Of a DNA stretch of 64,000 nt, positions 1,641 through 46,520 are shown piece by piece. The notes below the pieces were generated by a model. It searched no databases, was not told where the DNA came from, and saw only the letters and a program-made list of their open reading frames with translations. The DNA lies in contig CM054183.1 of NCBI GenBank assembly GCA_028829895.1, positions 76,247,571 to 76,311,570 on the forward strand, given 5' to 3'. Within the stretch, counting starts at the first letter, position 1; each line of letters begins with the position of its first letter. This DNA is from Sinotaia quadrata (Eukaryota; Mollusca; Gastropoda; Architaenioglossa; Viviparidae). The translations under genes were made by a program, and so were the position numbers.

Positions 1641-2105
1641 AACTATGTTTGACCTAGATTCCATTTCACTTGGTCGTTAAGCCACTTATCTGAATATTAT
1701 GGTGTCTTGAGTATGCATTTTCTAATTTATTACAAGTGCATTTATATAATGAAGAGCTATGTTAGCATAGAGTTTGTAAAATATAATACATTCTCTGAAA
1801 AGAACTTCTGCATTTTTATCAATTAGAATATACCCTTCAGTTATAATTTTAATTTAGACACTTCATAACTGAATTTTTTTACCTTTTTTACAGTGCATCA
1901 AAATGAACTTTTATTCAAATATTTCATAAACTACTTGAGGTTTTTTCTTATAATTTTGCAATACTATTATGTAAATACTTTTGTTTTACTCTGAATCAAA
2001 CCTGAAAAAATGGTTGGGACTACCTAATTGCATTATAAAATTTTCTCAATTTAAAGGGTATCATGTATGTTTGAATAACTGTTATGAATTTATGGAAACT
2101 ATATT

Positions 2106-2357
2106 GATTGCTATATTGTTTAAAACAAGTTTACCTCTTTGTGGTTGATTGCTATATTGTTTAATACAAGTTTACCTCTTTGCGGTTGACTGCAATATTG
2201 TTTAAAACAAGTTTACCTCTTTGTGGTTGACTGCAATATTGTTTAATACAACCTTACCTCTTTGTGGTTGACTGCAATATTGTTTAAAACAAGTTTACCT
2301 CTTTGTGGTTGACTGCAATATTGTTTAATACAAGCTTACCTCTTTGTGGTTGACAGA
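2106..2357 (-). repeat. 41-bp minisatellite derived from the exon 16 donor
   Basis: Five 41-bp units follow the real exon 16 donor. Read on the minus strand, each unit carries CAACCACAAAGAG|GTAAAC or a near variant, i.e. the last 13 exon bases joined to a GT donor. Most units also carry TATTGCAG 14 bases before it, so each looks like a 14-nt micro-exon with acceptor and donor. The real exon end at 2340 is the outermost unit. Confidence 0.9.
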
Positions 2358-2439
2358 GAAGAAACGTAGCATGGTCCCAAACATGGCACAAGCTGCAACA
2401 AAATGCCCTAGACGACCCACATGACTGGAGACAAAATAA
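2340..2439 (-). CDS. NAA25: NAA25 exon 16
   Basis: The 100-nt exon encodes YFVSSHVGRLGHFVAACAMF and GTMLRFFSVNHKE, matching Gly-Tyr...Leu-Gly-x-(Tyr/Phe)-x-Ala-Ala...Leu-Arg-Phe-Phe in the family. The acceptor is TTCCACAG and the donor GAG|GTAAGC. Phase 2 in, phase 0 out. The donor is one unit of the 41-bp array at 2106-2357. A hAT relic begins 57 bp upstream of the acceptor. Confidence 0.93.
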
Positions 2440-5400
2440 CTGTGGAAAACATAATAAAAAAACAAACAAAATAATCATCAACAAAATGCCCTAGATCAGT
2501 GGTTCTCAAGCTTTTCAAGTAGAGGGCCAAATCTACTAACTTCAGTACTTAAGCGGGCCAGAATGTTATAAAATTATAAATGTTTATCAATGTTTATAAA
2601 ATAATAAGTCGTGAAATATCATTCTTAACTTTCTTTAACAATTTTAAATAAGTTTCAAAAACTGCTATTAATGTAATTAGTTTACAATTGTAACTGTTCT
2701 TCACAACCAATTACTGAAGTTCAGATGCCAGTTTATCAATGTCTGGGCATAAAGTTGTCATGCCCAAAGTCACAAGCGCAGGTAGGTTACTGTCAGTGAG
2801 TCTGGAATGTTGCTTGTTTTTTATATTTGTCATTGCGGAAAATAACTGCTTGCATCTAAAGTATAACCAAAACAACAAATATATCTCTGTGCAAATGAAA
2901 GCAAGTGTTCAAATTGTTCGACAGGCAATAGTTGCCAGAATGAGATCATATGATCAACTGAAGGCGAAGCAGGCAGCTCCAGGAATTTGCATCTCAGTGC
3001 AGAATTGCATTTCATATCAATTACTTCTTGCTGAAGGTTTTGCTGTAATTGACGGATCTTGGCATCTGGAAATACAAATGGATTTATGAAGAGAGCAACA
3101 TTAATGTCTTGTTTTCAACTCTTGAAATCTCGACTGAAAGATATCTAGAAGACTTTCAACTTTAACCTTGCACTGCAACAAGTCTAATTTCTTTTCCACC
3201 ACAAGTGTCTTCAGAGTTGGAAACATCTCTAAAGTCCCTTCTGCTAGCTGTCTAATAAACAGGTGCATATTCATTTTAAATGCAGAAATGTCATCGCACA
3301 AATTTGTGAACAGTTTTCCTTTTCCCTGAAGCCTCACATTTAAAGAGTTTAAATGAAACGTGTTGTCACCAAAAATGCCAGGCTTTAAGTCAGTCATCGT
3401 TCTGCAGACATTCCTGTCCTGTAGGCAATTCATCAGACAAAAACAGATAGACATTATTTTTCAGTGCCCAGAAACGTGACAGTACTTTCCCTTTAGAAAA
3501 CCATCTGACTTTGTAGTGTAACAGTAGCTCACCATATTCCTCATTCAGGTCTGAACTCATGCCTGTGCAATGCCTTGCTTCGAATTTTGTTTACACATTT
3601 CAGAACAACATCCATATGTTTCAGATTTAATGTCTTTCCACACAGTGCTTCCTGGAGAATGATATAGTGTGGTCAAGAAACTTTTCCAATAGTGCAAGAC
3701 ATCCAGATTTCTTACCTGTCAAAGCTGGAGCACTGTCGGTGCATACACTATCCAATTTTGTCCAGTCTACGTTGTTTTTCTGTACACACTTGGTCCTGCT
3801 TTTATATCTTTTTTTAAACTGAAATCTTGCTTTGATACCTTTATTAATATTATAATTGAAATCCAGCTCTGACACTTTCATTATAACTGAAATCCTGCTT
3901 TGATGCTTCTGTTTGATACCTTCTTTATAACTGAAATCTAGTAAGAAGTTTTCCACTTATGGAAATATTGTGTAATGGTACATGAAAATGTTTGCCTTTA
4001 ATGTTGTGGAAGAGAGAAAACTTTTACAGCACCTGCATATCTGCCAAGTGAGAAAGACAAATGGTGTCTTATGGAGTTAAGATCATCACTTGTAATTAGT
4101 TATGGATGATTAATTAATTAATAATAATCAAAAACCAATTAACTAGAGTGGCATTGTGTTAAGGCTAGTGTAATCTCTGTACTGTGTTTTCTTAATTCTA
4201 AAGGAGCATTTATATTTCTTTGTTTACTTACCCAAGAGAGTCGTTCATGATGTGCTTCATATCCATTCCATTCCACAGAGGAGGACAAGGGCCGAAGGCA
4301 CCTGAAAGCAAATACTCAAAATTTATACTAGTGATGGATAAGGGCCAAAGGCACCTGAAAGCAAATACTCAAAATTTATACTAGTGACGGACAAGGGCCA
4401 AAAGCACCTAAAGGCAAATACTCAAAATTTATACTAGTGATGGACAAGGTCAAAGGCACATGAGAGCAATAATCCAAATTTACACTAGTGATGGACAAGT
4501 GTCAAAGGTACCTGAAAAGAAAATAGTCTAAAATTATACAAGTGATAAGAAGCTGAACATAAAAATTCAACTGGGGATGTACTCACATTTAGAAAAGTTA
4601 AATGATCTACAAACCTAATGAATGTGAAAATTCAAAATGCTGTACAGGTACACAACAAGGTTTTAGGTACACAATAAAAAAGAATGACAAGAATCAAGTC
4701 ATCACCAGAACAATGCTACTAACAGTTACAAAGCTCAATATTTCAGCTAAACATCTTTTATTAACACACTGCTTCTAACAATTATAAGAGTCAATATTTT
4801 AGATAAACAGCCTTCATCAAGCTTATCATGATTTCATTTTCATCAGTTAATTTGTTACCTTCATATGGTATCATATCTTTGTTTGATATGCATAAGAATT
4901 CTACAAGAGAGGTTAAGATTAGTTGGCCACAAGTGTCTACATTTATCAGGCTTGACACAAGGTAGTTCTATTCATTGTGATGCCAAATTCTAAGAATGAA
5001 TTGCATAAGAAAAGGATGGGAGAAAAAGGAATTTATTAACCTGTAAAATAAGCAACTTTCAAGACTAACATACTAAATTACTATAAGAGATTATGGGTCC
5101 ATTATCATATACAAACCATGGTTTGTATATTGGTATGAAGGCCCAGATACTCTAAGAGGAGATTAAAGAGCTTAACCACTTGCATGTTCCAAGACTATGT
5201 CCCCAGGGTACCCTCAGTACCTTTTGAGTAAAGGTAGGGTTGAAACAAATTTCAGGAATCCAAACATATCCTCAGTACCTCATGAGTAAAGGTATGGGGT
5301 TGAAACAAATAGCAGGAATCCTGAAGGTGTCCTCAGTGTCTCCTGAGTAAAGGTATGGGTTGACACAAGTATCAGGAATCCCAAAGGTATCCCCAGTACA

Positions 5401-8400
5401 TCCTAAGGTATGGGTTGAGAAAAGTAACGGGAATCCCCAAGGTACCCTCAGTAAAGGTTGGATTGACACAAATACTATGAATCTCAAAAGTATTCTTTAG
5501 CACTTACTGAGTAAAGGCATCCCAAAGGTATCCTTCTGTACCTCCAGTGTAAAGATATGAGTTGACACAAATAGGACAAATCCTCAAGGTATCTTTCTGT
5601 ACCTCCAGAGTAAAGGTATGGGTTGACACAAATAAGAGGAATAAACAGGGTGCCCTCAGTATCTCCTAAGTAAAGGTATGGGTTGAAATAAACAAGAGGA
5701 ATAAACAGGGTGCCCTCAGCATCTCCTAAGGATGAGTTAAACAAGTAGCAGGAAAATGAGGATTGTGGGAGTATGCTCATCTGTTAAGTAATCAAGAAAA
5801 ACTTATTTATAAAAATAAAAAATAAAACTTTTCCCTTTCCATCAAACAACTAGAAAAGCATACTTCAGGAAAACTATGAGCAGGAGGCAGATATTCATCT
5901 GATGTTCTAATTTCAATTATGTATGTATGTATGCACATGGAAAACTTAATGCAAAATGTTGTCTAGTTGATCCATTATAAAACAGGTCTTGTCCAGGATG
6001 GCGATCTTTCTTCACCTTCGATGTGGGTGTGATTCAAACTATTAGGGTCTCCCTCGTTCATTGCCAATCACTCTTCCAGGATAGAGACTTCTGGTTTATA
6101 TTATATACCATTTTAAAGGGCATAAAATGACCTTTTCAACAACTATAAAGGATGAAAATGATAGATGAAAATGGGTTCCGAAGTTATAATGCATCAAACA
6201 TAACACATAATTTGGACTCTAATTTGCTACAATAAAAATTTAAAAAATTGAAATGAACCAATGCTTGTGTTAAAGGTCAATATCTTAGCTTTATCTTGAT
6301 ATAAGCTTTATTTTTATTGGTTGAATCCTGGAAAGTCAATAGCATGTTATGTAAGCATACCCCAAAATGATGTTGGCGGTCAGCCATGTTCAAATTTTGC
6401 CACGGGCACTTCAATACGCTTTACCCGTTGTAAGCTTATCAATCAAAACATAATAAATACCTCATTCAAATGTACAAACAAAACTCACATTAAACATTTG
6501 AAGATTCCTTTATTTATTAAAATAATTTTCTCCCATTTCTTTCTTCTAATTACTGAGATAGACAGTTTTGAAAAAAAGTGAAATAAGCCAATATGTGATG
6601 TTGTCTCCATATAGCGAGTGGGCTTACCTAATACTAAGGACTCATCGTTTTGTACTCCCTAATACTAAGGATTTGTCATTCTGTACTCACTAATACTAAG
6701 GACTCACCCATTCTGTACTCCCTAATATTAAAGACTTGTCCTGTATCCCCTAAAGACTTGTCATTCTGTATCACTAAAGACTCATCATTCTGTACTCCCT
6801 AATGCTAAGGACTCATCATCCTGAACCCCTAATGACATCATTCTGTACTCACTTAGGACTCATCATTCTGTACTCTCTAATACTAAGGACTCACCCATTC
6901 TGTATTCCTTAATACTAAGAACTCATCCATTCTGTGTTTAATACTAAGGACTCACCCATTCTGTACTCCCTAATACTAAGGACTCACCCATTCTGTACTC
7001 CCTAATGTTATAGACGTCCTGTATCCCCTAAAGACTTGTCATTCTGTACTCACGAAGGACTCATCATTCTGTACTCCCTAATACTAAGGAGTCACCCATT
7101 CTGTACTCCCTAATACTAAGGAGTCACCCATTCTGTACTCCCTAATACTAAGGACTCCTCATCCTTACCCCCCTAATGACTCATCATTCTGTATTCACTA
7201 ATATTAAAGACTTGTCATTCTGAACTCCCTAATACTAAGGACTCATCATTCTGTACTCCCTAATACTAAGGACTCACCCATTCTGTATTCCTTAATACTA
7301 AGGACTCACCCATTCTGTAATCCTTAATACTAAGGACTCACCCATTCTGTATTCCTTAATACTAAGGACTCACCCATTCTGTAATCCTTAAAGGACTCAC
7401 TCATTCTGTATTCCTTAATATTAAGGACTCACCCATTTCTGAATAGAGACGCATGAGTAGAAGTTTGAACTGGAAGTTGGCAGGACTACGTCGTACACCA
7501 AGCTCTAACTGTACTACAGCTTGCCAGAGGTACTTGTCACGACCTGGTGACAAATGCATTGGACAAACCTAAAGTTACATAAAGTGCGCTGACAAAGAGG
7601 AAACAATTGCAGCTACATACCCTCTATCTATCATGTTTTTTGTTGATAGTTTGTTTAATTTTTATCTGATTTATTTATAATTAATGCTTATATGTGACTG
7701 TAAAGGAAAAAACTAAAAAGAGCAACAACTTGATTCAGGTATCAAGTCTTTTGCCATTAGAAGTGTTTGTAATCTTTCTACAATAAAAAAAAAAAAAAAA
7801 GTCATTATCTAAATTTAGAAAATTACATATGACTTGCAGGAGTACAAACAAATAAAATAAACAAACAAGAAAGTTAAGTGTCTAAAATATAAATGCTGTA
7901 ATTTTTATTTTGACTAAACACTAAATAAAAAATGTTACAGTTAAATTCATCTTTCAAAGAGTAAAATGTTAATACAATAACAAACTTGTTTACAGCAGTA
8001 CACCTTAGAGTGAAACAAGTGATAACATCCCTTAATTTATTCACCTTGGAAATGCTTGATATATTCTTGCCTACTGACAAAAACAAAAGAATGAATAGAT
8101 GAAATTTAGCACAGAGCACTTGGTTAAGCTTGAGACTGAAGACATTAACTTCTGGAAGATGTTGTCCTGGCTCTACAGGAAAAACCTTATAGTATTTTAA
8201 TGTGCAATAAGCACTTTTTGCATCAATGCTCTAGAAACACCAACTCTTCTCCTGGAATATGACCATTTTTCATTCAGTTTGTGATGCTAATGCCTCTTGG
8301 TTAATAATTGTGATTATTAATTAATCATCCATGACTATTTGCAAGTGATGAGAATTTTAATTTATTAATTTAATTTAATAATATTCCAGAAGGTACCTTG

Positions 8401-11400
8401 TCTTTCTCACTTGGCAGATGTGCAGACACGGTAAACATTTTCTCTCTTACACAACACTAAAGATAAACATTTAATGTCACACAATATTTCCACAGGTGGA
8501 AAACTTCTTACCAAAGGAGAAGACAAATCTGTCTTTAATCTATATTTTTAGTATATTTTTAGTGAGCCCCCATCCACCTTTCCGACATATAGTTATCAAT
8601 ATGTGTTAAGGTCAATAAATTTAACAATAAATTTATTAAATCAAAAGTCAAATATATAACATGAATATACTCAAAGAGGGTTGACATTTACATCACTTCA
8701 CAACAATGTTCAATTAACGCTGGACAACTGTTCAGTTTATCCTGGCATAGACATAAGCAGTAAATTAACATAAATACATTACCAAGTTCATGGTTATCAT
8801 CATGGAAATGAAAGTAGAGTTCAGAGAAATAATTAAGCCAAAGCACATAACTTTTTCAAATAAGGCAGCTGTTGCCAGCACAGGTTTCAGGGTAACATGG
8901 TTTGCAACAAGTCATTGCCTTTCATATTGAGACGAGTTCCCTTCTAGGGGCATGCGTTACAACTGTTCCAGAATCTTCGACGCGTTCTCTATGCATGCCA
9001 AGGAGAATCGTCCTGAATTTCACATGCATTATCAAGTACAAGGAATGCTTTTGAATTTCTGTGTACATTTACTCAACACACCATAAAGAACATTCAAAAT
9101 AAACTTTGTGAATTCTCGAGACCAAACTCAAGCCACAATTTCCACCAATTTGGCATTCGAATGGAATTCACAGGAATTAACTTACAGCAACATGTTTTAC
9201 TGATAAGTAGACGACAATACATACACACACCAACATATTCAAATAGAGAGTACAGTAGTCACTGTAGTGTGAAGTGACAATCAAAAAGGCTTGCTCTGTT
9301 CTGCAAAAGTCAAATTAAGGCAGCACTAAATTTCAGGCATATTTCATTTTTAAAACTCCTCTCTCTCTTACAAACATTCTCAACTTACAAATCCTGCAAA
9401 AATTTCATTAGCCCAATAAACACACATCATAAGAAACGGCATCATTCAAAATTCACAAGTATAATGTACAACATAATCAAATTAATGAACATTAGAAATA
9501 AAGGTTCAATTACATGAGCATTCTCAATCATAGAGCAATAGCAAACAATTCTTTCTTTATCAGTTAGTTAACATACCACAAGCTAATGATTGCCTTTATA
9601 ACCAGACATGAGTTATGTTCAAATTCAAAGTGATAGAATTGAGTACTTCTTCAACATTTAAACTTCCAGCCCAACCCCATTGGATAAAATTGTTAAAAGT
9701 GTGAGACTATTAGTCAGAAAAACTACTCATCCAGTTGGAACTGGTTTGTGTTTCATATTTATTTAATGCATACTATTCCTCTGATGAGTTCAAGATGTGA
9801 CTAATTTATTTATTCTTGCAGGGTGGAGGAGAAGTTCAAGTCTTTTCCAATGACATTTCCTTCTATATACCACCACAACAAAAGCTTGACATGTATGCAT
9901 GCACACAAAATGCAACCAAACTTGCCTGTAAAAAACAACAATATACAGATGCAAATAGTCAAACAAATACTGTATAGCAACAGCAATTTAAATTCACACC
10001 ACTAAGAACTGTCCAAAGTAGTCAGCAGTCTCGGACATCCACATTTAATGTATCAACAAAGTCTTAAGTTGCACCTCACCTCCAACATAACATCAAGTCT
10101 GTCAATGGCATGGCTGTTTTGTGTTGGCTGTTCCCTGGTTGCTTGAATAATCATTAATGGAACCTGAAGATTTCGCAGGTAGATCTGTCACATTCAAATG
10201 TACACCTGTATACTAACAACCCTTTGTGACAACCCTTATCATTTTGATGTGAGTTAATCATATAAGCAAGGACCAAAGAGGCTGCAGTAATGGACTTGCT
10301 TATATATGACTTGATACTTGGCAGTTGATAAATAATTTTGGGAACATTTTCACCTAGTGACGGTGCCTGTGGTCTATGACAAAAGAAAGTATCAAATTAG
10401 TGATGAAGGACACTGGAGTCAAACTGTGATGGAAGAAGGCTGTTAAGATCCATCGCATGGGATCTTAAATGACCCTATATATTCTGAACTGGCACAAATG
10501 GGACTTGCTGGTAGTCAACCAAATAAGGTTTCCTTCTTTATGAAGAAAGATCTATCTTGGAGAAGGGGGGACAATAATAAGACCAAGCTAGTGGTATTTA
10601 CCCAATGCCATTGTCAGATAGTGAGGATGGTCTCTTAGGGTTGATAGTTTAAATCCAGCATCACCCAATACTATTACTGTCCCAGAATGTTAGCAGATAA
10701 TTGGGAGTATGACTATTATTACTGCCACTGTAAGACAGGAATGTCGTGCTGCCTGCACAAAGACCAATATCCTGGAACTTCCTCAAGTGACTACCAACTA
10801 ACTACATTTTTTATGGCAGAATCCATTCCATGTCACAGGAAACCTTTCCTTAAAAAAATTCAGAATCAGAATCTTTGGTGAGGAATGAGTACTTCACATC
10901 AGACTGTTTCCTTTACAAACATAAGACAAAACTGTTGAGAAATGTGTACTTCACATCAAACTATTTTCTTTGTCAAAATAGAACAGAATCTTTGGTTTAA
11001 GAAAAAAAGAGTACATCAGAAAAAATATACAGGATCAAAATCCTTGGCAAGGAAAGAGTACTTCATACTACACTAATGATCAGAATTCTTTGCTGTGGAA
11101 AGAGTTCTTCACATTACAGTGTCTCCTTTAAAAATACAGAATCAAAATCCTCGGTTAGAAAAGAGAACTTCATGTTATGCTATTGATGAGAATCCTTGGT
11201 GAGGAAAAAGAACTTCTTGCAAAATTCTTCTGATCAAAAATCCTTAGTGAAGAAAGACTACTTCCACATGAGGAGGAGATTACTCCTTGGTGAAGAAAGA
11301 CTACTCCACACTATCAGAATCTTTGGTGAGGAAAGGGTACTTCACATTATCAAAATCCTTGGTGAGGAAAGAGTGTATTTTACATTATCACAATCCTTCA

Positions 11401-14400
11401 CACTGTTGAAACAAGAATAGTGTAACACATTTATTTCATATTATCTTTGCTTGCTAAGGAAATTGCTGTATCAACGGCTGCTACAATGAACAATATATAA
11501 ACTTAAGAAACTCCTATAACTTAAAAAAAAAATTCAAACAAATTAATGAAACCATCACCATATTTTAAGTTGAATGTTTAATAATAATTGATAATATATA
11601 TATAATTTTAATTGGTGAATATTTCTTTTAAAGTTTTACAAATAAAATAATAGTGAAGATTCAATTTTAAAAACTTTTTAAAAAAAGATTTTTTCCCTAA
11701 AGCATGCACATATTTACAATCATATAATTTTTATTTTATATGTAAATACTGTTAAGTGTACAAAATGTAATTTTCCCACTGATTGAGCAATTGCATTCAT
11801 AAATGAATTTCATTCTTGTGCACAGTGGCAATATTAGTAATTACCCTGCCTAAGAGAAACAAATTAGTTAAGACACTGACATTAAATTAGAAAGTATAGT
11901 GGTAGTGCTACCATCTCTAAGAGAAAGAAATTAGTTAAGACAACTGATATTAAGTTAGACAGCACAGTGGCAGTGCTACCATACCTAAAAAGATTAGCAC
12001 AGTGGCAATGCTACCATACCTAAAAAAATTAAAGTCACTGGCATTAAGTTAGACAGCAAAGTGGCATTGCTTCCATATCTAAAAAAAAATAGTTATGTCA
12101 CTGGCATTAAGTTAGACAGTATAGTGGCAGTGCTACCATGCCTAAGAGAAACAAACAAATTAGACTTGTTGCAGTGCTCCCATGTCTAAAAGAAACAAAC
12201 TAATTATGACACTGACATTAAGTTAGACAGTATAGTGGTAGTACTACCATGCCTAGAGAAAAAAATTAGTTAAGATACTGACACTAAGTAAAACAATATA
12301 CTGGCACTACTACCATGACTAGAGAAACAAATTAGTTAAGATACTAACATTTAAGTTAGTATATTGGCAGTGCTTTCAAGACTAGAGAAACAAATTAGTT
12401 AAGATACTGACATTAATTAAAACAGTATAGTGGCAGAACTACCATGGTTAAAGAAATAAATTAGTTAAGAAATCAATATTAAGTTTAGTTACAAGTATAG
12501 TGGCAGTGCTACCATGTCTAAGAGAAACATATTGGCTAGACATTAGAGGAGTCTGGGCAAATTATACCTGTTTTGATTAACTATTTTCATTAATAAGGCG
12601 GTTTCGTTTGTTTTCCTTTTCCTTCTATAATGACCAATGTACTGTTATTGGCCTTGAACTGTGGTGCAATACTTGTTGTTGAGTACAAGGGATATAGGTC
12701 ACGTGTGAATGGTTGAAAAGTGAAGGGTGCTGGGGAAGCAGCTTGCTAAACCGGATGTTTGATGACCATATATAGAGATATTTTTTTTGCTGATGACATA
12801 GGTTAAGTACGCAGAAGCTGTGGGTGTGTGGAACTCTATAAATAAGGGCAAAGTTATTCATGAGGACCATGCCTATCTTTCAAAGGTCGAACTAATTCCA
12901 TGGATGAAGATTTTTAGCTAGCTGTACTTCAAAAAAAGGTAAAACATATCACATTCTCAGCTATTAGATGTATTGTATTAAGAATGCTGCAGAAATAGTT
13001 ATGTATTTTTCATTTGATTTTATGAATTGTTGCCATTTTCTCACAACGTTCTGTGGCAATAGAAATAGTATATAATCATTCTTCATGCATGCTCTGTGTT
13101 ATTATTAATTCTTTGATTCATTGTAAGGCATATTAGTATAGTGGGATGCCATTTTGATGTGAACTATTTTGTAACGATTGTAACCTGCTTGTGCATGGGC
13201 TTTCTCCTTTTGATGAGGTATTAATTGTAAAATAGATCGAGGTCAAAATGTAAGGCACACCTATTTCTGTCACTCGAATGAACGTGATACCATTTTACCT
13301 TCTACATATATGGTGTTGTGTGAGGTGGTTTTCGAAGACAGTGCAACAGATTCTATGACATGCAAGTGACGCATTGATTTTCGTGTGTATGAGTCTGGCA
13401 GGGCGGACTGAAAAACTTCGATAACTAAATGCCAGTTAAGTGGAATTGCCAAATGACTACAATCTAAGACTTGTGTTTACGATCCGTTATGAACTTTATG
13501 GACAGAGTAGGTTGTCTTGGAAAACCATTTGTATATCGTTTTACTATTTGATTGATGTATTATTTTGTTGTAAATTATTAAATTTTATCTTCGTTATCTT
13601 AATAATTAAAATTGGCTTGATTATTAGAAAGATCGTAAGGGTTGGTGGGGGTGGAGCCATATGTGGATATGAATGATTTTCTTTATAACAAAATTAATAT
13701 AACTAGTCCAATCTGTGCATTGTACATGGATTTACTGTCATTCCAATGAATGCCAGAATTCAAGGGTAATTAAATTGTAGAGGCTGAAGGGTGAATCAGG
13801 CATCAAGTCTGTCATCAATATTAGGTGTGATATAAAACTCTAAAGCCTCGTGTTGAGACAGGGTCTTTAAATATAAACTGGAACGCAATACTAGGATACT
13901 GATATTAAGTTTAGTTAGCAAAGTACTAGTTTAGTAAGTAAAGTACAGTGCTACCATGCCTAAAAGATTTAGTTAGTAAAGTGGCATTGCTATCATACCT
14001 AAGAGAAACACAATAGTTAAGGCACTGATATTAATTTCAAAAGTAAAGTGGTAGTGATACTGTGCCTAAGAGAAATACATCCGTTAAGGTATGATATTAA
14101 GTTATAGACACATCTAATCAAATTTTTGATGTAATTGAATGAACACAATGTAGTGAATTTATGACAAATATTGCAAGCATGTATACACATTTTAAACTCA
14201 TTATAGATGCTATTTTAAATTTAAAATCATGTCACATACTTTTTAATTTTTTTTAAATTTTGATAAAATATGGTTTGGCAAATAAACCAACAAATTTACT
14301 TCCTTTTCTCTTTCCAAAATAGCTAATTTATCTGAATAATTAAAAAAAAAAATACAGGATGTTGATGTCATTCTATAAGTATTCTGAATCCAATACTTTA

Positions 14401-20400: not shown

Positions 20401-23400
20401 TATTAATTAAGTAAATGTTAATCTGTTAAAAAAACTAAACTGATAAGAATAAAAGGGTTATTTTTATATACTAATATCAATTTTTACAGAGTAGTCTTCA
20501 AATAAACACAGATTACTTTGACCTACCATCTACTCTGTTTCAACACTTGTTTCTATGACAAGAGCCCAATTAAAACTATCAAATATAAAATATATATATT
20601 TGAAAATATTAAAGGAAGATATGTAAGTTTATCCCCACCCATGAATAATAATTTATTTCATAAATATTTAATGTGGAAGAGGTGGTAGCTGCCCCTTTAT
20701 GCTAGCTTGAGTATGGCAAATTGCCAAGGCAATAACTTTCCCAAATTCAGGAAAAATCACATTTCCCTAAAGAGCAAGTAAGCACCAATGTGCAATAATC
20801 TGATAAATGAGCTTACTCTCTACGTGGAAACTGATTTTAAACATTACCTGAAAGGTGAACTTGAAACATGCTTTTTAAATGTTACTTCTCAAAGTGATAA
20901 ATTAGTTGAATTCTTAACAATATCTAGACATTTACTGCTTCTTAAAACAATAAGTTCCTTTTCAACTTCTCAAAGCAATAAATTACTTGAATTTTTATCA
21001 AATTATAGTCTTTTTCACATTTTAGAATTAGGTTGCATGAGTAACATGCAAATTTAAATGTTACTTCTCAAAACAATAAGTTACTTGAATTCTTACCAAA
21101 TTCCAGTCCTTTTTCACATCTTGGAATTAGGTTGCATGAAGAACATGCACATTTAAATGCTACTTCTCAAAGCAATAAACTTGAATTATTACCAAATTCT
21201 AGTCCTTTTCGATATCTCAGAATTAAATCACGTGAAGTTTTGAGCAAATCATCATCTGGCATCGAGGCAAAAATACTACAATGGCGAGACAGTTGTAGAA
21301 CTGCAGTATGTTGACATATATGTTTCGTCTGCAGAAAAAAAGAGCATACAGCATGAGTCAGGAGTTTTTAGTGTACATATGAGTGAGCGAGTGTGTGTGT
21401 GTGTGTGTATGTGCGTGCGTGTGCGTGCTTGTGCATTGTACATGTATATGACTGGCTGCAATGATAAATGACTTTTCATGAATACAGTTTCCAAAGTATT
21501 AGATACACAATACGAATGTTCCCATTCCTATGGGAAGGAACAGAATGGATTATATGGAGGGGGAGAAAATATAAATATTGTAGAATAACAGGAGATAAAA
21601 TAAATATGTAAGGAATGATTCAGATAAACAGCATATAACACTATAAACCATTCTACATATAATGCTACTTTTATAGGTATGATTCCAGAGCATATAATGT
21701 ATACATAATAAACCTGCATAATCTTTCTTTATTATTGAAAAGAATGACAAATTCCCTTATATCAGAACTGCATATTTGTATTAAATTATATAGATAGTGA
21801 AAGAAACAAGTACAAGTTGAATATAACCATACAAACATTGTGAAATAAGGTCATTTGTGATTTCATACAGTGAGAAGATAAAACAATTTCCAACACTTTT
21901 TATTAGTTAACCATTTCAACTAAAAGTGAAACAACAGTGCATGGATTGTAAGATGTCTGAAATGTCAAACACTGTCAATCAATACAAGACTATTCTAGAT
22001 TACTTTTTGAATGTCTTAAATAAAACAAACTACTGTACATCTCAGTTATGGACTTAACTTTTCCTGTGTGTTACTTCTATATAAATTAACTGATAATTTT
22101 CACCAAACAACAAAATCATTATACCTGATAAGAGTTAACTGTATATCTGTAAACAGAATAACAAATACAATAACAATGTATAATATTTTAAATAAAATAA
22201 AATTCTTTTCAACTAAGCCAAAAGGTGGCAAAATTACAAACTGTGCAAAAGGTATATGAAAAATCTAACTGAAGTGAAAACTTAAAAATTTAACGAATCT
22301 CTTGTAAATAAATTTGTGAAGACCAGATGTACTTACATCTCTTGCATATACAGGAGTGCCATCCTCTGAGGTCAGTTTTAAGGAGTCTGTAAACTGACTA
22401 GTCACCTGCAAAGAACAAACAAACAAGCAAAGTATTTCGATGTACAATTGGGATGTATCAATTTTATTTATAATTAATACCTAGGCATAATAAAAGTTAA
22501 GTCTACAATCCATGATAGGTAACCCAGAAAAATTGCTAAGAGTTGCAATTAAGGGAAAAAAAATCATTGAAATGTTTTAAAATAGAGTTACTGAGCATGA
22601 ATTTTGCTCATCTGATTATATTTATCTATATGTTCTATCCCCATCTGTAATCACTGATTTATCTCTCATTATGTAATAGAACTAATAGAAGATTGTCAAA
22701 TGTATTTATGAAATAACTTATGTATCTCTCATATTCATTCTTAATATAAAATATATAAACCTGTTATTTCAATGTTTATTGTTAAGATAACATTTCATAT
22801 AGAATGCTCATCCAGGATCTAGACAAATTAATGGATTCTGTAAACATCATTTTATGCCTTAATCTTTTATATAACATCCCCAAACAGTTATTACCATAAA
22901 TATCAAGCCATGCTAAGTTAGACCAATTCCATGTCAATACAAAATGTCTGACACTGAGCAAATCTAGACCAATTCCATCTCAATACAAGAAAAAGAAGAC
23001 TTACTTTCTGTGCCTCCTGCTGATCTAGAAGACAGGTGAAAGACTTAAGATCAGCAGCACAGCAAGGCTTAGTACCAAACAGATCAAAATACTGATGAAA
23101 TAACTCACTGGGAGGTCCTGCCAAATAGGTATAAAAGTTTTCAACACATATTTTAAACAAAACTGCATCTACAATCAGGGATAATAAATTTAAGGAGTAT
23201 TATTATACATAAAGACATAAAAAAAAGTTATTTAACAACCCACATTTTAAAAATCTGGGATATAAAATGTCTTTGTTATATATAAAATAATCTTTTATTT
23301 TAATAAATTTTTAATGAATAAAAATACATACTGTTTTAAATTTATAAATTTAAAGTCATAAAAAATTTACCATACAAATAAAACTATTGAAATAAGGTTT

Positions 23401-26400
23401 TTCCAGAACACAAGCTAAAGAAAGTTATGTTTGGCTGTTAAAAAATTAAAAATTAAAAAAAAAAAAAAGTGAACATTTTGCTATTATACCCATTCAAAAA
23501 GTAATAAATAATGTAAATTTTAAATATGCTTCTGTCCATAAGTAATTTATTAACTGTCTATACGATGAGCCACATTGACAAATTTTAGGTACACAGAATA
23601 ATTAAAACTATTAAAAGGGGACTTGGCCCACTGATTACTGAAACAAAATTGAAAAAACATGCTTAAAATAAAACAGACTGCAGAATAAAATTATATTAAA
23701 GTTATTTATTTATTTATTTATTTTTTTTTTTGGGGGGGGGGGCATAAACAAACCCTAGCCATAACATACATAACTCTTATTAGTCATTAAACTTTCTACA
23801 TCACCACTCTACCTATGAAACAGTATTTATCAACCTATGTTTTCACATTTTTTAAATACAACAAGTTATATTTGTTAGTTTTATAATATCTCTTCAGTAT
23901 TTATTTAAATTTTTATAAAATATATAAGTACATATTTTAAAAAAAAATTGTTGTTGATAAAAATTATCATATTGTAATACGCACAATAAAATCCTTAAAT
24001 AATCTTTTAATTTCCTCTCTATAACTGAAAATTTTACCCACTGGTATTTATAAATTTTAGAACTGATAAAGATACAAAAAGATACATTAAAAAACCATTT
24101 ACCCACCCATTTAAAAAAACAAAAAACAAAAACAAAATCTGAAGGAAACAGGTACTTAAACTTGAAAATTAAACTGTAAAAATTAAATGTTATCATAAAA
24201 AAAGACTTATTCTTCACTCAGCATATCTCCTGAATTAAGAATCAGATATCATTTTTACTTTTAAAGCTTTATGCATCCCAGTATTTGCTATTATTCTGTT
24301 ATGTTTTCTATTATCACAAGAATATTTTTGCTATATTAAGATTTTAAAAAATTATTAGCATTTTGTGCACTGTGCACTATTCATTAAAAAAAAAAAAAAT
24401 GCTATTCATTTAGAAATACATATATACTGCTTATTTTAAACGTTTTCTAAATTTGTATTAGAAATAGATTAAAAAAACCAAAAAAACCCCTAAAAAATTC
24501 ATATATGAGAGTGAGAGAGAGAGAGAAAGATTGAGAATATTAACACGTGAATAGTGATACAGTGTAAAGTAACATCAAACAACCACAAGGTGCAATGGTC
24601 ACCACACTTACAGAAGAAATTTTAAAGCCAAACCAGTAAACAGATCACAAAGTTTTAGAAGAACAGAAAATTTGTATGGCCAAAAAGAGTTATATGGTCA
24701 AATCAACTAGATAAGAAATGAACATTTAAAAGACTATTTTCACTGTTTTATAATTAACAAAAGCTCCAATAATCCAGTGAATTCACCTGCCAACTTCAAA
24801 ACTTCAGACTTTCTCTCCTGTAAAATCCGAACGAACTCCATTTGAGCTAGGTAGGGCCCCCGCAAAGGGGTATCTTGTTGACACTGTTTAATTTGTTCAT
24901 TAATAAATTCCATGACCTCCTCCAGGGTGCTGTCCACCATTTTCCCTTCTTTCCCATTTCTGAAACACAAGGAGAAAACAACTCTTGAGTGTCTCTGTCA
25001 CAGTCAGATGACTATGTCTCTATAGTTTCAGTCAATGACTAAATGGCGAACTGTAAGAATAAAAGTGAAATAAATGACAAACAGATCTTTCAACCACTAT
25101 ATTTTATGTTAGTAATTACCTTCAGGAACAAGTTCTATCAAGAGTGCTTCAAAGCAGTAGTCACAATTTCTAATGATTGATTATTCTGAACAAAAGACTG
25201 GTCATTTCAATAGATAAATATCTTTCTTATATTTATTAATTTTAATAAAAAATATTAATCCTCAAATTACATACTGTAGGGAAGGGTTTTGTTACATCAT
25301 TAACTGTAACAGTATTTTGTATACAGTTATTACACTAGTGTTCTGGTTATCAGCATGCTATTAAATGCTAACTGAAAATAAAATAATCCCCAAACTGATT
25401 TAAAATCCAAAGTGGACTTTTGGACAGGTAGCTAAATAAACCTAATCTGACTGCAAGTCTTTTAAAATACTCAAAAGTTTCACAATCAGACAATCACTAA
25501 CATTATTTCAACTTAATGAAATATTTAAAGATCAGTAAACAGTACATACACTATCATCTGGATTCCTGAATGCAATTAAATCTTTATAAAAACTGAGAAT
25601 CTTAAAAAATTCTGATATTGCTCCCCCCTTTTTCTTCAAATTACATGTCAAGAGATGGATTTTACTGTTATAAACTTAGGTCAAGCATTTGTTTTTTTTC
25701 TTAAGTTGTAGATTTTTCATTGTAAAATAAAAGAAAATGGGTTAGGGTAGGTTCTGAATACAAAATCTGTCAAATTCAGAGAACAATTATGAGATCATTA
25801 TATACAGTGTGATATATTGTTGCATTTTGTAACTATATCTATATGTAGTTAGAAAAACTGCTTTCTTTATATTGTGTTAACATGAACATACTCATTGTCA
25901 CAGTTGGATGTGTACATGTATCCAGAATCAATGAGTTGAAAAGCTGTATTGAGATACTGCAGCCAATATTGCCAGTGATCAGGACTGTCAACAGAATCAC
26001 AGTAAAATATGCAATAATTACTTTGATTAGGAAAATAAAAAAACTGACAAAAGTAAAACAATGATAGTATTTTTCAGACAATATTTCAAATCTCTCTTAT
26101 ACTCACAATAAAATGGGCGATCATTCTATGGGGTTAGGAAAATAAAAATATCAATAAATTTTTTAAAAGACAACAATTATATTATTTTTCAGACAATATT
26201 TCCCAACTATCTTATCTTTAAGGAGTCTAATAAAACCAATCAATGCAGAGCTTTATAAAAATTCTTTATAAACTGAAAATAATTGATTTAACTTATCAAC
26301 TAACACCCTCAAACAGAGTGATGCACAAGAATGCAAAGTGGAAACTGGTTCAATGTCGCCAGAGTTGAACACTACGGTACTCAATAAAGTCCACCATTGT

Positions 26401-29400
26401 TGTTGACAGTCTTCAGTGATTTCGGTCACTGACTATAGTTCTTTCAACACAATTCGGTATGCGTGCAGTATTTTTTGTCTCAAACTATATAGACTTATAG
26501 ATGAAGAATTTTCCTATTTTCTGGTAGCTTTTAAGGCTGCTATGTTATCGGAATCACCAAGAACATAATTTAAGAAAATTTAAGTTTAACTGTATTTCAC
26601 TTTATCTTGAAATTCCCAGACATTATTTAGTATGGAAATGTTCTCTCTCCTACATGAAAACCATTATTATTTTTAGATTACTGTACTGCACACGTCCCCA
26701 CAGACTGAGTGCATGTTTTAAGCGTTAGCGCTGGACAAGTTTTGACAGCTTGGTCAAAAAGTCGCTCGGTTGGTAACTTCTGAATAACTTATTATTACTT
26801 TTTCACAATTATTTCACAATTAAAACAAACAAACACATAAATACAGGACAGAGAACAAACTTTTGTTTCATGTGCTTTTATTTTACAAAGCTTCAATATA
26901 CAGAGGAAACATGAGTGTTGAATATGTAGAAAAATTGACAAAACAATGTCCCAATCAGTCATTCAGCGATGTTTGGAATACCTACTATAAGAAATTAAAT
27001 ATAAATATATAAATAAAATGTTTCATAATATTTATAGTTTAATCTAAAATGAATAACTATCTTCAAAAAGGATTTACAACCAATATATGAAAAATAAAAT
27101 CCAAAAACTCATTCTCTCTCTTTTATTCTATTGCTTAATAAACTTAAGTACACAGTTCAGTCCTTGGAAATGTTTGTGTACATAAATATGACTATTATAA
27201 ACAGCTACAGTATTATATTTACCAAAGTGTGCTCTGTATATAGTTTTGTGGTAGAGTAAATTTGCTTGTCCCTATTTTAAAACTTAATTATTATATAGTT
27301 TGTTAAATGTCAATGTGACATGACATTCAGGTACTGTGCATGATGATATTTTTGCAAATACCAGATTTAAAATATCTCAGGTAAAGAACTTAATGTAACC
27401 CAAACCAGTCCAGAGTGGTTGAGTAATTTTTGCTATCCATTAGTTTAATGTTTACAAATAATGAACTTGCCAATGGTTAGAGACTGAAACTTACCAGTTG
27501 AAGAAAGTTCTATATTCTAACCACTTTGATTTTGACATAACACAAGTCCGGTCATGAAAAGGCAATTGTTATCTTATTGGTGAGTTAACTGGATGATTGG
27601 GAGAGAATGGACCTAGAAATATTTCGCACACTTTGCTACTGATATTATTGTATTTGTAATTTAACTCTTTACTAGGCAGACGTTTTTCCTTTTTTTAGCT
27701 CTAAACGGGCAAGATTTTTCAGGATGTCAGTGATATTTAGGGGTACGTCGGTAAAAACATCATATCTTAGGTATTAGTGCATATATTTCAATGAAATAAA
27801 ATGCAAAATGAAAGGAAATGAAAGCAGCTTTATTAATATCCTTAATTGAAGTATACTTTCGGGTGTTAAATTTGAATCCATGCGTGAAAATATATATTTA
27901 CAAAAAAAAATATTATCCATTTATTGTCCGCTACAAACACTATGAACACACACTTTGTTGATGCCAGGAACACTAATCTGTCATCAGACAATCAATACAT
28001 CTCTTTTTTCGGCAGGTTGTGAATCAAAATCATAAGTCCAAAATAAGCCTTAATTTTAGTGGCATTAGTTTCCCTCCAACTTGGGTCACCATTTTGTTTT
28101 TTCGCAATTTTCGGACATGCATACTTGTTCGTTTATTCCACTATCTTGTCAAATGTTTCTTCTTTGAAAAACCAATAGAAGAAAGCCAGATGAGTACTAT
28201 CATTAGTTACAGTCACATTCGGCCCCATTTTTGTTTTAAATTCCGATATATTCAGTGCTAAAGTACTATTATTCCAACCATGTGTGTCTCCAGATACCCA
28301 TTCCCCCTACTCCTCTTCAATTATCCTCAGAATCTGACGCACTCTCCTCCAAAATTTGAAAGATACTACATGTGCACACTACTGACACTAATGTCACTTC
28401 TAATCCTATTGTCTAATTCAAAATAAACTTCTCTTACCTCATTATCTGATACATTGAATCCATTAAACTTCTCATTAACGATCGACGATTCTAAGAAATC
28501 CATTGAAACACCAAACGCGAAAAACAAAGAAAACTTTATGAAAAAAAGAATGCTGCCACATGAAAACACTTCAAAATGGGGCGGAAATCGTTGTCCAAAC
28601 GTCATGCTTCCTGTAGACACCGGATATGATGAAAATATGGGAAGGAAAGAGCACTGTAAGAGCACTGGTTGCTATGGGCGGCGTTGGGCGTTCTGCCCGG
28701 TAAAGAGTTAATGTAAAGATGTATTATATAAAAAGACTATTATTTCTACAGTTGTGAATTCTGATACTTGTATGTAATATGTTAAACATATGACATTGTT
28801 TCTAGCAGAAAATAATTGATTATGTTGTATTTATTATGTTGCACAGATATATCGGGCTAATAAATCCTGTTGCAGGAATTGTATATTGAGAATGATTAGA
28901 AGAGAATGGAGAATAGAAATGATTAAACTTGTAATTTACTGTTGCGCTCTGATGTTTCAGAAAGGAGCAAGCCTTTTTTTGTTTCCTTTTGTTCTTGTAT
29001 GCTTGTGGTGGCTTCGAGAAATTTCCATCCTAGAGTGTGGCAGTTGTGATGATTCACTGCACCCCATTTGTGTGCATCAACAAGTGTGTCTGACTCCACT
29101 TTGGTGTGCTAGAAGTTTGTTATTGTGATTGCCTAATCGAGAAGCTAATATGGCGAAAGTGTGCCTAGATTAGTATCGAGGGATCTACAACATGCTTAGC
29201 AGAGCACATGGAAGATTAATTATTCTAGTGTGAATAATAAACTTGTGATATTGTTATGAAAGCAACTGAAAGACTGTTGTGGCTTATGTCATTGAACAGA
29301 TTGTGTACAAACTATTACCATATCACTCCATTAACTCCATTTCTTCTATGATACGAATAGTCCTGTGATTTATATGTTGATACTAGTCTGACTGCTGAAT

Positions 29401-32400
29401 TATGTGTTAGAATATAAGAAATAATAAGTATTGGAATTACATGAAATTGTTTCATGGAACATTGATGTCAAATAACCTTCTCATTGTATTGGTATATGTA
29501 TATTTGATTGTTGATTTAATAAATTTATTAACCTTCTTACACATTTGAAGACTGAAATCATGACAGCAGAAGCCACTCAACCTTGGAGTCAGCGAGCTGA
29601 AAGAAGTCACCTCTTTCACCTACCTGGGCAGCATTGTATCAGCAACTGGTGGTTCTGATGAGGACATCAAAGCCAGAATTGGGAAAGCTAGATACACCTT
29701 TATTGCCCTGAGACCAGTCCGGAGGGCAACATCCCTATCTGTCCACAACAAACTATGAATTTTCAACAGCAACATTAAGTCTGTCCTCCTCTATGGCTCA
29801 GAGACCTGGAGAGTCACCAACAGCTTAACTAACAAACTCCAAGTATTCATCAACGGCTGCCTTTGCAACATACTGAAGATCAGGTGGACAGACAAACTAA
29901 AGAACACTGATTTGTGGAAGTGGACAAACCAAGATCCCATCAATCAGCAGATTGCCAGGCGTAAATGGCGATAGATAGGACACATCCTGCGGACCCCCCC
30001 CACAGGACATCAACCGGTAGGCTTTGCAGTGGAACCCCCAGGGAAAGAGACGGGTTTTTTGCCCAAAGACCACCTGGAGACGATCCTGCGAAGAGGAAAT
30101 GAGGTGAACTGAAAAAGGCTGCCCAGAATAGACTGCAATGGAGAACTGTTGTTGAGGTCCTTTGTTCCATGGGGAATCCAAGGAGGTAAGTCAAATCAAG
30201 TCTTACACATATTAATAAAACATATGTTGGACTGACAGTGGGTGGATGGGGGTTCATTAAATATAATTAAAGATGGATTTGTTAATCCTTTGGTAAAAAG
30301 TTTACACCTGTGAAAATATTGTGACAATAAAACATGTCTTATTATTGTGGAAGAGAGAAGACTTTTATTACACTCGAGTGGTGTCTCCTGGGAGAATTAT
30401 TAATTAACATAAATTAAAATTTCTCCATCACTTGTAATTAGTTATGGATGATTAATAATAATAATCATAACCAGTAACAAAGGGGTGCAGTGTCATAAGT
30501 TTAAAATGAGTTTGAAACAGAGTAGGGTTGTCGCAAAGCTGCTTACAGAACTGAGGATCAGACAATTAATTCTGCATTTTATAGCAGCTAAAATTAACTT
30601 GCAATTACTAAGAATAAATTTATAAACAAATAAAGTATTTCTTTAAAGCAATACTAAATGATATAAGTGTAATAAAGTCAAACCTCAGTTTTTGTATGCA
30701 CTAGTTTTCTTATGATTCATTTTTCAACCACTTTTTTCATCGAAATGTTGTCCCAGTTTTTGTACATCTGCTTAGTTTTTGTACCAAACTCGTCCGACTG
30801 CCTGCCTCGGCCACTCATTTCCTGGAATTGAGCGCCCACACATAGCATCCCATGTGTTTGTGACTTAGTCTGCCTTTGTTTCTCGTTGAGCGAGCATCAA
30901 TCCGCGCATTCATCCGAAACATTTTGTAATCATCCATTGTTTTTTGTGCTTGTTTATTTAGTGCAACTGCTAAATATGTCACCATATGGTCAAAGAAAGT
31001 TCAGAGTGCCAGCCCTTTGATAAAGAAGGCGAGAAACACGATAGAATTCAAGAACGAATTTGTAGCAAAGTACAAAAGTGGCGTATAATAATTTCCTTTA
31101 ATCAAATGTCCCAAGTGCAATTAAATCATAAGTAATGTTGTTCATCAGCAAAAAATGCAGCATTTATACATGCCTTCCAAACAATAATCTCTCTTCCTAC
31201 CTTTCCCCTCCTTGCTGTCTTCCATAAACCAACAAGTGTCTTCAATAAAGGTAAAAGTGATGTTAAATGTTCATTAGTCATTTATATTTATTTATCATTG
31301 TATTTATCATCATATATGTATAGTTATTCTCTATAAAATGTAATTGTATTTTTTTGTTAATATTTTTGGGTGTCATGAACGGATTAATTGGATTTACATT
31401 ATTTCTTATGGGAAATATTGCTTCAGTTTTCGTATGTTCGGTTTTGTCAGACTTTTTTGAACATATTAATCACGAAAACTGAGGTTCCACTGTAAACTTA
31501 GAGATTCATCAGTTTCTAACTTTGCTGAAGCTCTAACAGATCTTGCAACCATTGCAAGAACTTGAAACACTTGGTGCAAAACCTTAAACCATATTTTTTT
31601 TAAATAATAGTTTTGTAGATGAATGAATGCTCTTGTCTGCACAACATTCAGTGCAAAGAAATTCATTCAAATGTGGTTATATCAACAATTTCAAATGAGC
31701 TTGAGTTTTTAAAGTTAAGGTAATAAAAGTGGTATCAGTTGAAAGCTTACATTACAACTTTATTTTAGGTTCTTACTTAAATAACAAAAAATTATGTGTG
31801 GTTGTGTGCTAAAAAAAAATCCTGACAAAAGCAAATTTTTCGATCAGGATGACATAATGACTGTCAGACCCCATTGTTAGCTAAAACATGTCTAACACAT
31901 AGTAAGTGCAATTATTTTTCATTCAAACAGGGTTTTTAAGTCACATTAAAAGTAATATAGTAATGTTTTAAAAAACAGAAATGATTTTTAATATTATGCA
32001 AGTTACATCAACAAATAATTGTATTAAAATCTCTAACATCACTAGAGAAAATCACCAAATGTATGCACAAAATGCTACTTATTCCTGCACAATAGCAATG
32101 TTGGGACTACCTACTACTAGCAAAAAGAATGCATTAAGATTCATCAATAAAACTTCCAAGGAGTTTGCATTTTTATTAATCAATAAAAGTGACAAGCAAT
32201 TAGACTGCATTGTGAATCAATAGGCTAACAAAGAGTTTGCATTGGGATTCCCCCTCAAAATTGATTAGCAAATAATTTGCATTGTGATTTATCAATAAAA
32301 CTGCCTAACAAAAACTTGCATTGTGATTCATCAATAAAATTGCCTTGCTAAGAGTGTGCATTGTAATTTGGCAACAAAATCGACTAGCCAAAAGTTAGCA

Positions 32401-35400
32401 TTGTGATTCATCAATTGCCTAGTAAAGAAGTTGCATTGAAATTTCATCAACAAAATTGCTTAGTTGTACAATTCAAATTTTAAAGTCATAAATATGTTTT
32501 ATTTATGCTTATAAACAAAAAGTGATTCTAATAATTAAAAAAACATGAAGTGTTTTGTTGAATGAGCCTCTTCTTTGAATTCCAATTCTCAAAGTAGCTG
32601 AATATTAATTATGTAATCAAAATAAGCCATGACGACAGTTTGGTGCATTGATGGATTAAGTTAACAGTCCTTGGAAATGTATTCATATTTCTATAATCCT
32701 ATATTAAGCAAATCTATAGAGTGATATATTTGTATTGTGTGTAACAAACTAGAGATATGAAAAAAGACACACTTCTCTTTAAGTAGTTTTTTGTAGATGG
32801 AGTTGGCCTTGTCCCATTTTTGAAGTTTACATTGAAGTTCAGCAAGCTTTGTGGGTAAAAAGTTCAGCTCACTTACTATCCGCTCTGCACAATTAATATT
32901 TATTTTCTACATATAAGCCATTTTATAAAATGTTTTACATTTAGACTGGAGCTCTTTAAAAGTACATGGAAACAAACTAATAAACAGTTTTCTGACCAAA
33001 AATCATATAATCAGTCATTAAACAGCATACAGAATAAAAACAACTATAAAAGTCAATATTTCAAATTATCAAACAATAGAAATCTTATCCCAACAGATGG
33101 CAGCTATTATTACAAAGATTTACATCTCTATCTAATAATACATGATGAGAAGATGAATGTCAAACAAAGGATAAGCCATAAAATTATTACTTAGCAAATG
33201 ACGGCTAGTCTGAAACACACAAACGGAGAAAAAAAACCCTGTGAAATGAATGGTTTCTATTAAAAATCTATTAAAAAGAATAAGTAATGCTCCTCTTAAA
33301 GGTCTAAAATGAATAGAAATTGACAATCAGCTTAAAAAGATAAATAAAATATAATATTTCAAAGTACTAACAGTTTATAATACTTAAAAGAATAAAATGT
33401 TTTCTAAAATAGGATAGGCTTAAAGTTAACCATACAACTAATTTCGTAAGTGCATCATAAAGAAATAATACTAACCTCCCAGAGGTCCTTCTAATAAATC
33501 AACTGCTTCTTGCCACTTTTCTTGTAATTCTAGCACCATCAGATATAGCAGTGCCTCTGTAGTAGATATGAAAAGCAAACAAACGTTTACTAGCATCATC
33601 ATATTTAGAGTGCTTTCAGTAGTAAAGAAAAGATATGATAACAAACTAACAAACCACATAATCAAAATGGACCATCAGATTTTGAGTAATGATGTCAAGA
33701 ATTGAAAAATAACAATACAAATGTTCAATAGCACCCATCGGATACAATAATGCCTCTCTAGTAGTGAAAAGACATGAAAACAAACTGTGGATGGCTAGGT
33801 TTGCAGTCTGCCAAGCAGTAGTTTTGTTTTTACATGTAGGCCTGTCATTGTCGGCAAATTGGATCAGCAATTGCCCACTAATTTTTGTTTAAGGCTGAGC
33901 AGGAAATTTGTGTCATATGTACTATGCTGTTTTATGAGTACATGCTTTTATTGTTGTATACTATTTTAGGTAGTTAATAACTGAATTTGATGTTTGTATA
34001 TTTAGACAGGAAATAGTTTATAGTTTGTATTTATGTATTTTTGTGAGATTGGTTTTCCCATAGCACACCTATATGGTGATTTATTTTATTTTATACTTTA
34101 TGCTTCAAATTATACATTAGGAAAGAGCTGTATTTAAAACTAAAAGATAATTAATGTAGTTTCCTTAGACAGTAAAATCATAACATAACTCTTAAGTGGT
34201 TTAGAAGTAATTCATATTTAAACCAGAGTAAGAAATCACAGAACATAGAAGTCTGGTTCTGGAGACATGGTTGTAGAATTTGAAGGTCTTCCAGGGTATA
34301 TTTATTTGGCCAGGGTGGTCATGTGTGGCGAGTTCATTGTATGCATGCAGAGGAACAGAGAACTAAGTAGCATGAAAGAATTGAGAATGAGTTTTGGCAG
34401 GCAGATATGTGGCTGTGTCACCATGAAAGAGGTGAGAATGAGTTTTGGCAGGCAGATATGTGGCTGTGTCACCATGACAGAGGTGAGAATGAGTTTTGGC
34501 AGGCAGTTATGTGGCTGTTGCCCTGAAATAAAAGGTCTCTCATGTAAACACAGTTACATGTTCATCTCTTCCTGTGGTGTTGTGAAGTGTGTCAGTATTG
34601 TCTTTCATCATCGGCATTGTCTTGCATCCTGTGGTGACCAATTACACTACAACCACCACCCCATCACAAAACAAACATTCACAGAGAGACTGTTAACTTA
34701 TAAATACATTTATACATAAAATTTGTAATAGATATGATGAAAACTAAAAATTTGTATAAATGATATGATGCAGTAAGTGATGATCAGAACAGGTTTAATT
34801 TAGGATTGTTTTCATTTTGCTGATGAATTTTTGTTTTAAAACTTAAGGCAAACACTTTAATAAAAAATAGATTTATAACTTCATATATATATATATATAC
34901 ACATTTGAATAATTAGAACAGACTGTAGAAGAATAACTATTTGAATCACTATGCAAACAATATACCATTATTTAAAGAGACCAATCTTTATATTCCAAAT
35001 TTAAAGACACTAGGATGATAAATATATGTTCCTTCTTGGCATATAGTAATGTGGTCTTAAATACATGTAGAAGTAAATTATTAAACAAACTAATATTATA
35101 ATATATATTAAATGAAATATCTGTAAAGCCAGGACCCTGAAAATATAATTACTGGATTAAGATTTTTTGTGTGCACAAAATATTTTTCTTTAATGAAATT
35201 GAAATAAGTTGCAGGAGACTTCAGCTCAATTGTCAAATGTTTGTTGAAAGTATAGTGCTATACTTTATTAGTTCGACTCTTCAACCAAAACACCCCCCCA
35301 CAAAAAAAAAATGTGTTAAAAAAATAATCAGATTAAAGTGCATTTCTGAAGGTAAAGAAAATATGCGAAAACCAACATATGTTCACTAGCATTCATCAGA

Positions 35401-46139: not shown

Positions 46140-46520
46140 TCTAAATTACATAGGCAATTAATGAGGGCTTAAATTGAGAGTAATTGAGAAAGAAGGGCAA
46201 TTAATGAGGTCTTCGTTGTCAATAATTGGGTCTATTCAGAAAGTAGGCAAGACTTAAGGGGCATGGTTGAAGATACATGTAATATAATTATCCAGACAGC
46301 TAGACAGTTTATGAGAACACGTGTGGAAATAATTATCTAGAGAGGGAAAGGTAATTAATGGGGGCTTTGTTGTGAGTAACCGTCTAGATAGAGATGGGCA
46401 GCTAATGAGAACTTATAGAACTAAGTATCCAAAGAGAGATGGGCAGTTAATGAAGGCTTAGTTGGGAATAATTACTCTGGGGATATAAACAGTTAACGAG
46501 GGCTTAGATATAAATAATTA
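46140..46520. repeat. Minisatellite upstream of NAA25
   Basis: Seven to eight diverged units of 45-60 bp with GGGCAGTTAATGAGGGCTTA and GTGAATAATTATCTAGAGAG. It lies 170-550 bp upstream of the start codon, where it could affect the promoter. Confidence 0.8.

Follow-up and report, generated by a model that had tools for sequence, protein, structure and literature searches.

The window analysed here, a whole stretch of 64,000 nucleotides from Sinotaia quadrata contig CM054183.1, holds exons 1-16 of NAA25, the gene for the NatB auxiliary subunit, on the minus strand (2340-45967, read from 45967 to 2340), and the gene extends past the window end. Exons were located by tblastn, with a human NAA25 sequence serving as the query, and their ends were set by GT-AG and the reading frame, giving a splice-consistent model of the first 577 codons with 16 exons and 31 splice junctions. 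The 577-aa product is 45% identical to this human sequence, and the protein alignment to the latter is gap-free at four of the five junctions considered below; the fifth, the donor of exon 16, is the end of the model, the following exon lying outside the window. Its nearest relatives are caenogastropod (Littorina saxatilis 78%, Babylonia areolata 78%, Batillaria 77%), and NAA25 of Octopus bimaculoides is 52% identical to it. A PDB sequence search matched a piece of exon 4 to solved NAA25 chains and returned no match for a piece of exon 9.

The gene upstream of NAA25, at 52-64 kb, is SFSWAP by best matches. Imperfect tandem repeats lie at 53221-53567 of SFSWAP, within a long open frame rich in lysine and glutamate, and longer local repeat pairs in and around the gene (62407-63529, 55583-56097 and 46187-46473) are probably dispersed elements. 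Three open frames, at 3100-3960 (minus), 29564-29974 (plus) and 36873-37127 (minus), show what we take to be a resemblance to remnants of hAT-type transposase and LINE reverse transcriptase; the pieces of these frames that were tried had no Pfam match. Across the window, a tRNA scan found no tRNA and Rfam at the gathering threshold found no match, nor did a Pfam search with eight ORF pieces.

Each of the 31 junctions, taken with 80 bp around it, was aligned with the 1500 bp on each side, and five proved to be members of local repeats that extend into the intron, namely the donors of exons 12, 14 and 16 and the acceptors of exons 6 and 15. Junction-spanning scores were 105 for the exon 16 donor, 93 for the exon 15 acceptor, 92 for the exon 12 donor, 82 for the exon 14 donor and 42 for the exon 6 acceptor, against a maximum of 26 for shuffled blocks (n = 20). 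The exon 2 acceptor scored 32 with a match that stops 8 bp short of the junction, a short local repeat that excludes the junction starts 16 bp after the exon 10 donor (22919-22988, minus strand; local alignment, score 43), and the remaining 24 junctions scored at most 28. These scores, 42-105 against no more than 26 after shuffling, bear out the first-pass annotation, which had described five NAA25 junctions as members of arrays entering the intron. It had also taken the arrays for amplified copies of the adjacent junctions, and this holds as well: TRF recovers four of the five arrays (exons 12, 14, 15 and 16), and their consensus units score 71-119 against their own junctions, with 100 shuffles of each reaching at most 33. 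The exon 6 array is absent from the TRF list and was seen by local alignment. The four TRF arrays have units of 99 bp (exon 12), 32 bp (exon 14), 41 bp (exon 16) and 53 bp (exon 15); at exon 6 the copies are degenerate and irregularly spaced.

At exons 6, 12, 15 and 16, four of the five junctions, the copies include coding sequence, 15-33 bp in length. The exonic part of the unit alone scores 46 for exon 12, 33 for exon 15, 30 for exon 16 and 14 for exon 14, to be read against shuffled units compared with junctions, which averaged 18-22 with maxima of 27-33. By eye, the residues encoded by the exonic parts of the arrays are conserved in eight fetched relatives, barring two models without the stretch, and the copying therefore ran from the junction into the intron. 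Both boundary types are affected (three donors, two acceptors), and unit length varies between loci. Since the units differ in length, sequence and divergence, the arrays arose separately, as had been supposed from their differing units. Other NAA25 minisatellites were considered as relics of junction copies, and this was rejected: when 13 consensus units were compared with all 31 junctions, a test that left out three TRF arrays (15933, 33350 and 44337), nine aligned with none of them better than shuffled sequence did (P 0.11 to 0.94).

The exon 16 donor array (2104-2354, minus strand; TRF and alignment) comprises six copies of a 41-bp unit with 15 exonic bp. GT is intact in all five extra copies and reads GTAAAC in four, and the units alternate between TGTATT and TGTTTT, giving a higher-order period of 82 bp that suggests duplication of unit pairs. 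The exonic match is exact over 15 bp and in register, and we accept it because of that register, its score of 30 being within the shuffle maxima of 27-33. At the exon 15 acceptor (4283-4546, minus strand; TRF and alignment) stand five copies of a unit of about 53 bp, each with 19 exonic bp; moving away from the exon, the extra copies are 94, 92, 80 and 80% identical to the junction unit, and three of these four keep AG. The 82-bp alternation at exon 16 and the diverged distal units at exon 15 bear on concerted evolution of inner units with the cluster edges left out, a mirage trait, but samples this small give no clear sign either way.

The exon 14 donor array (6627-7444, minus strand; TRF and alignment) has a 32-bp unit and, by length, about 25 units; TRF places it at 6627-7437. 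Eleven listed copies have an in-register GTGA donor, as ATGG|GTGA or ATGA|GTGA, and eight of these eleven equal the real donor in score; some further units read ATGATGAG, without GT. The donor signal is thus a member of the unit, and the exonic match, of about 10 bp with an indel (score 14), is not convincing. The first copy is just 71% identical to the junction unit. Public NAA25 models of relatives are faulty around exons 14-16, that of Pomacea lacking the exon 15 stretch and that of Nucella stopping just after exon 14; possibly, and this is a guess, junction arrays in those snails mislead gene prediction.

At the exon 12 donor (20865-21225, minus strand; TRF and alignment), a 99-bp unit is present in four copies, including a degenerate one; the TRF call covers 20965-21225. 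The copied stretch takes in the last 31-33 exonic bp and about 65 intronic bp, and one of the three extra copies keeps GT. The exon 6 acceptor repeats (33531-33785, minus strand; alignment) include three junction copies, at 33556 (the real one), about 33616 and about 33755, with 26-27 exonic bp and irregular spacing. Copies of this junction score 39, 42 and 60, and 2000 shuffles per copy never exceeded 28. A distant fourth copy, with 27 exonic bp and its AG lost, lies 1.9 kb upstream in intron 5 (35386-35437, minus strand; alignment) and is nearer in sequence to exon 6 than the tandem copies are; the exon 6 copies show no distance gradient in similarity. Elsewhere in the window, this one at 35.4 kb is the sole clear further copy of any of the five junctions, and two short matches of 22 and 30 bp are borderline.

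Splice sites were scored with a weight matrix built from NAA25's own 16 donors and 15 acceptors, a small set, with the tested real site left out, and the cut-off for a decoy was the 90th percentile of background GT or AG sites. The first-pass annotation was right that the introns hold decoy splice sites: 23 alternative sites exceed the cut-off (15 in the exon 14 array, five at exon 12, two at exon 15 and one at exon 16), some of them not unit copies. Its further statement that several decoys come with attached exon sequence is clear at four junctions and unconvincing at exon 14, where the exonic part is the short, indel-bearing match described above. Using any of the 23 sites results in a stop codon, so these sites could not rescue splicing. 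The real donor of exon 12 scores 0.4, against 6.6 for its first copy; at exon 6 the real acceptor scores 1.6, under the cut-off, and none of its copies pass.

Whether arrays prefer junctions hinges on the null, the answer being no with free placement and yes if exon overrun is forbidden or placement is by seed unit, and all enrichment P values are post hoc, from one gene picked because of its arrays. As single positions, 5 of 31 junctions are locally repeated, as are 478 of 4219 intron points and 5 of 174 exon points, with no clear enrichment at junctions; a whole-window repeat search likewise gave no enrichment (5/31 junctions vs 102/400 intron control points), the latter figure being raised, we think, by transposons. 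Among 15 TRF arrays (overlapping rows merged by hand, two in-gene rows with units under 20 bp dropped), three contain a junction with at least 8 bp on each side, the exon 14 array being uncounted with its 5 exonic bp by TRF. The expected number is 1.77 when exons are ignored (P 0.25), 0.38 when coverage of exon sequence is limited to 40 bp (P 0.006), 0.33 when a single seed unit is placed (P 0.004) and 0.26 for a seed unit with the exon limit (P 0.002).

A uniform catalogue of 25 local-repeat blocks, which includes non-tandem local pairs, gave a similar picture. Five blocks contain a junction, with 2.7 expected when exons are ignored (P 0.12), 0.69 when exon overrun is barred (P 0.00045) and 1.29 under the seed-unit null (P 0.009); at a stricter cut-off it is 4 of 18 blocks (P 0.17, 0.001 and 0.016 under the same three nulls). 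Blocks that cover a junction or come within 20 bp of one number 7 of 25 (expected 1.2, P 0.0001); with the limit at 50 bp the count is again 7 (expected 1.75, P 0.001), and at 100 bp it is 9 (expected 2.7, P 0.0007). A two-copy local repeat that excludes the junction ends 13 bp before the exon 8 acceptor (25997-26215, minus strand). We think the exon-respecting null the better one, because arrays running through exons would be purged. The earlier argument that five boundaries in one gene speak against a single accident is not upheld as a statement about chance: free placement gives P 0.12, and the excess appears only under constrained nulls, post hoc.

The first-pass annotation knew of no named class of such minisatellites, and here it was mistaken, since lancelet "mirage" minisatellites are already named. 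The defining paper on mirages is reportedly Canestro 2002. Lancelet mirages are minisatellite-like tandem duplications of intron-exon boundaries, at donors and acceptors, with units of about 10 to 160 bp, in genes for Adh3, the globins Gb6 and Gb9 and troponin C, and the splice signals are kept in many copies, not all (PMC3087553, PMC3902484). In one of the two papers RT-PCR suggested undisturbed splicing (PMC3087553); the other also cites troponin C and likens PGBD5 repeats to mirages (PMC3902484). The NAA25 arrays are like these in affecting donors and acceptors, in their variable units and in partial loss of GT or AG, which is kept in 5/5 extra copies at exon 16, 3/4 at exon 15 and 1/3 at exon 12. 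Unlike them, they occur in a mollusc, at five junctions of one gene, and are known from one assembled sequence alone, whereas the lancelet cases come with RT-PCR and haplotype length data.

Other systems are more distant. Human segmental-duplication genes have internal tandem repeats at their exon-intron boundaries (PMC2812944); minisatellites cross junctions there as in NAA25, with altered splicing and new introns reported for the human case. In the Rogers model, as cited in PMC3087553, introns are gained by tandem duplication of AGGT segments, and a potato RdRp gene is a listed case (PMC4974935); splice signals are duplicated in both settings, but the NAA25 copies went to the intron side of the junction. 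An abalone gene carries a 27-bp minisatellite in an intron, which is not said to cross a junction (PMC6905558). Among the papers listed on minisatellites at junctions or in molluscs there was no mollusc mirage, and a case may well be in print elsewhere. We read the NAA25 arrays as mirages outside lancelets, in a mollusc, of a kind known and little noticed.

The arrays are, we consider, very probably mirage-type minisatellites, produced by neutral tandem duplication across junctions, tolerated there, on five separate occasions. A short stretch spanning a splice junction would be tandemly duplicated, presumably by slippage or unequal exchange. With a duplicate over the junction, the exon and the outermost splice site would stay intact while the extra copy, with its exon tail, would drop into the intron; since the exon still has its outermost site to use, a duplication of this kind can include coding sequence at little cost. 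The extra copy would be nearly neutral in the intron and free to amplify and decay. The reading frame points to splicing at the exon-most copy, the others being putative decoys that would normally be passed over. Copies near the exon tend to resemble it most in the exon 12, 14, 15 and 16 arrays, which fits repeated duplication at the exon end, yet any tandem array tends likewise. Two observations weigh on the other side: the first copy at exon 12 (6.6 vs 0.4) would be expected to compete with the real donor, and the near-junction excess found with constrained nulls is not easily squared with neutrality.

Chance overlap, itself compatible with neutral mirages, deserves serious weight, though we put it somewhat below even: NAA25 is rich in local repeats (about 9-14% of the gene), and some would cover junctions that are otherwise irrelevant. 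The single-position counts (5/31 vs 478/4219) and window-wide counts (5/31 vs 102/400) agree with this, as do the exon-ignoring nulls (P 0.25, 0.12 and 0.17), but the junction-reaching arrays end 12-33 bp inside the exon, the constrained nulls expect 0.69 or 1.29 blocks where five are observed (P 0.00045 and 0.009), and 7 of 25 blocks lie over or within 20 bp of a junction (P 0.0001). That same near-junction excess, together with the most exon-like copies lying near the exon in four arrays, is what would follow if junctions were mutational hot spots, with the boundary seeding duplication and a conveyor carrying copies from a fixed exon into the intron. We regard this as doubtful, the excess being post hoc and from one gene, and distance-dependent similarity being expected in any tandem array; likeness to the junction unit is only 71% in the first exon 14 copy, and among the exon 6 copies it follows no gradient. 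It is similarly unlikely that junctions are preferred duplication seeds with the exon end as a lasting template, in which case mirages would be a general way for introns to grow in gastropods, perhaps in animals at large.

Selection could keep redundant splice sites, as the first-pass annotation proposed among its explanations, or poison sites that lower NAA25 output. Eight exon 14 copies do equal the real donor in score and the first exon 12 copy exceeds it, but with stops brought by all 23 sites above the cut-off the redundancy idea is unsupported, and GT or AG has been lost in two of three exon 12 copies and one of four exon 15 copies; we hold selection in either form to be quite improbable. 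Insertion of a transposable, introner-like element has in its favour the fourth exon 6 junction copy, 1.9 kb away. This origin is rejected within the window and is the least credible we considered, given that the units are otherwise undispersed, save for two borderline short matches, and that the copies carry NAA25's own coding sequence.

With the arrays read as mirages, each one is a natural experiment in splice-site choice: one intron holds at least 11 copies of one donor, eight of them as strong by score as the real site, and exon 12 offers a case where a copy looks stronger than the real site. They are relevant, too, to the suggestion that repeats of this kind can seed new introns. Should snails have mirages just as lancelets do, then either such arrays were invented more than once or tandem duplication at junctions gives rise to them generally and this has been overlooked.
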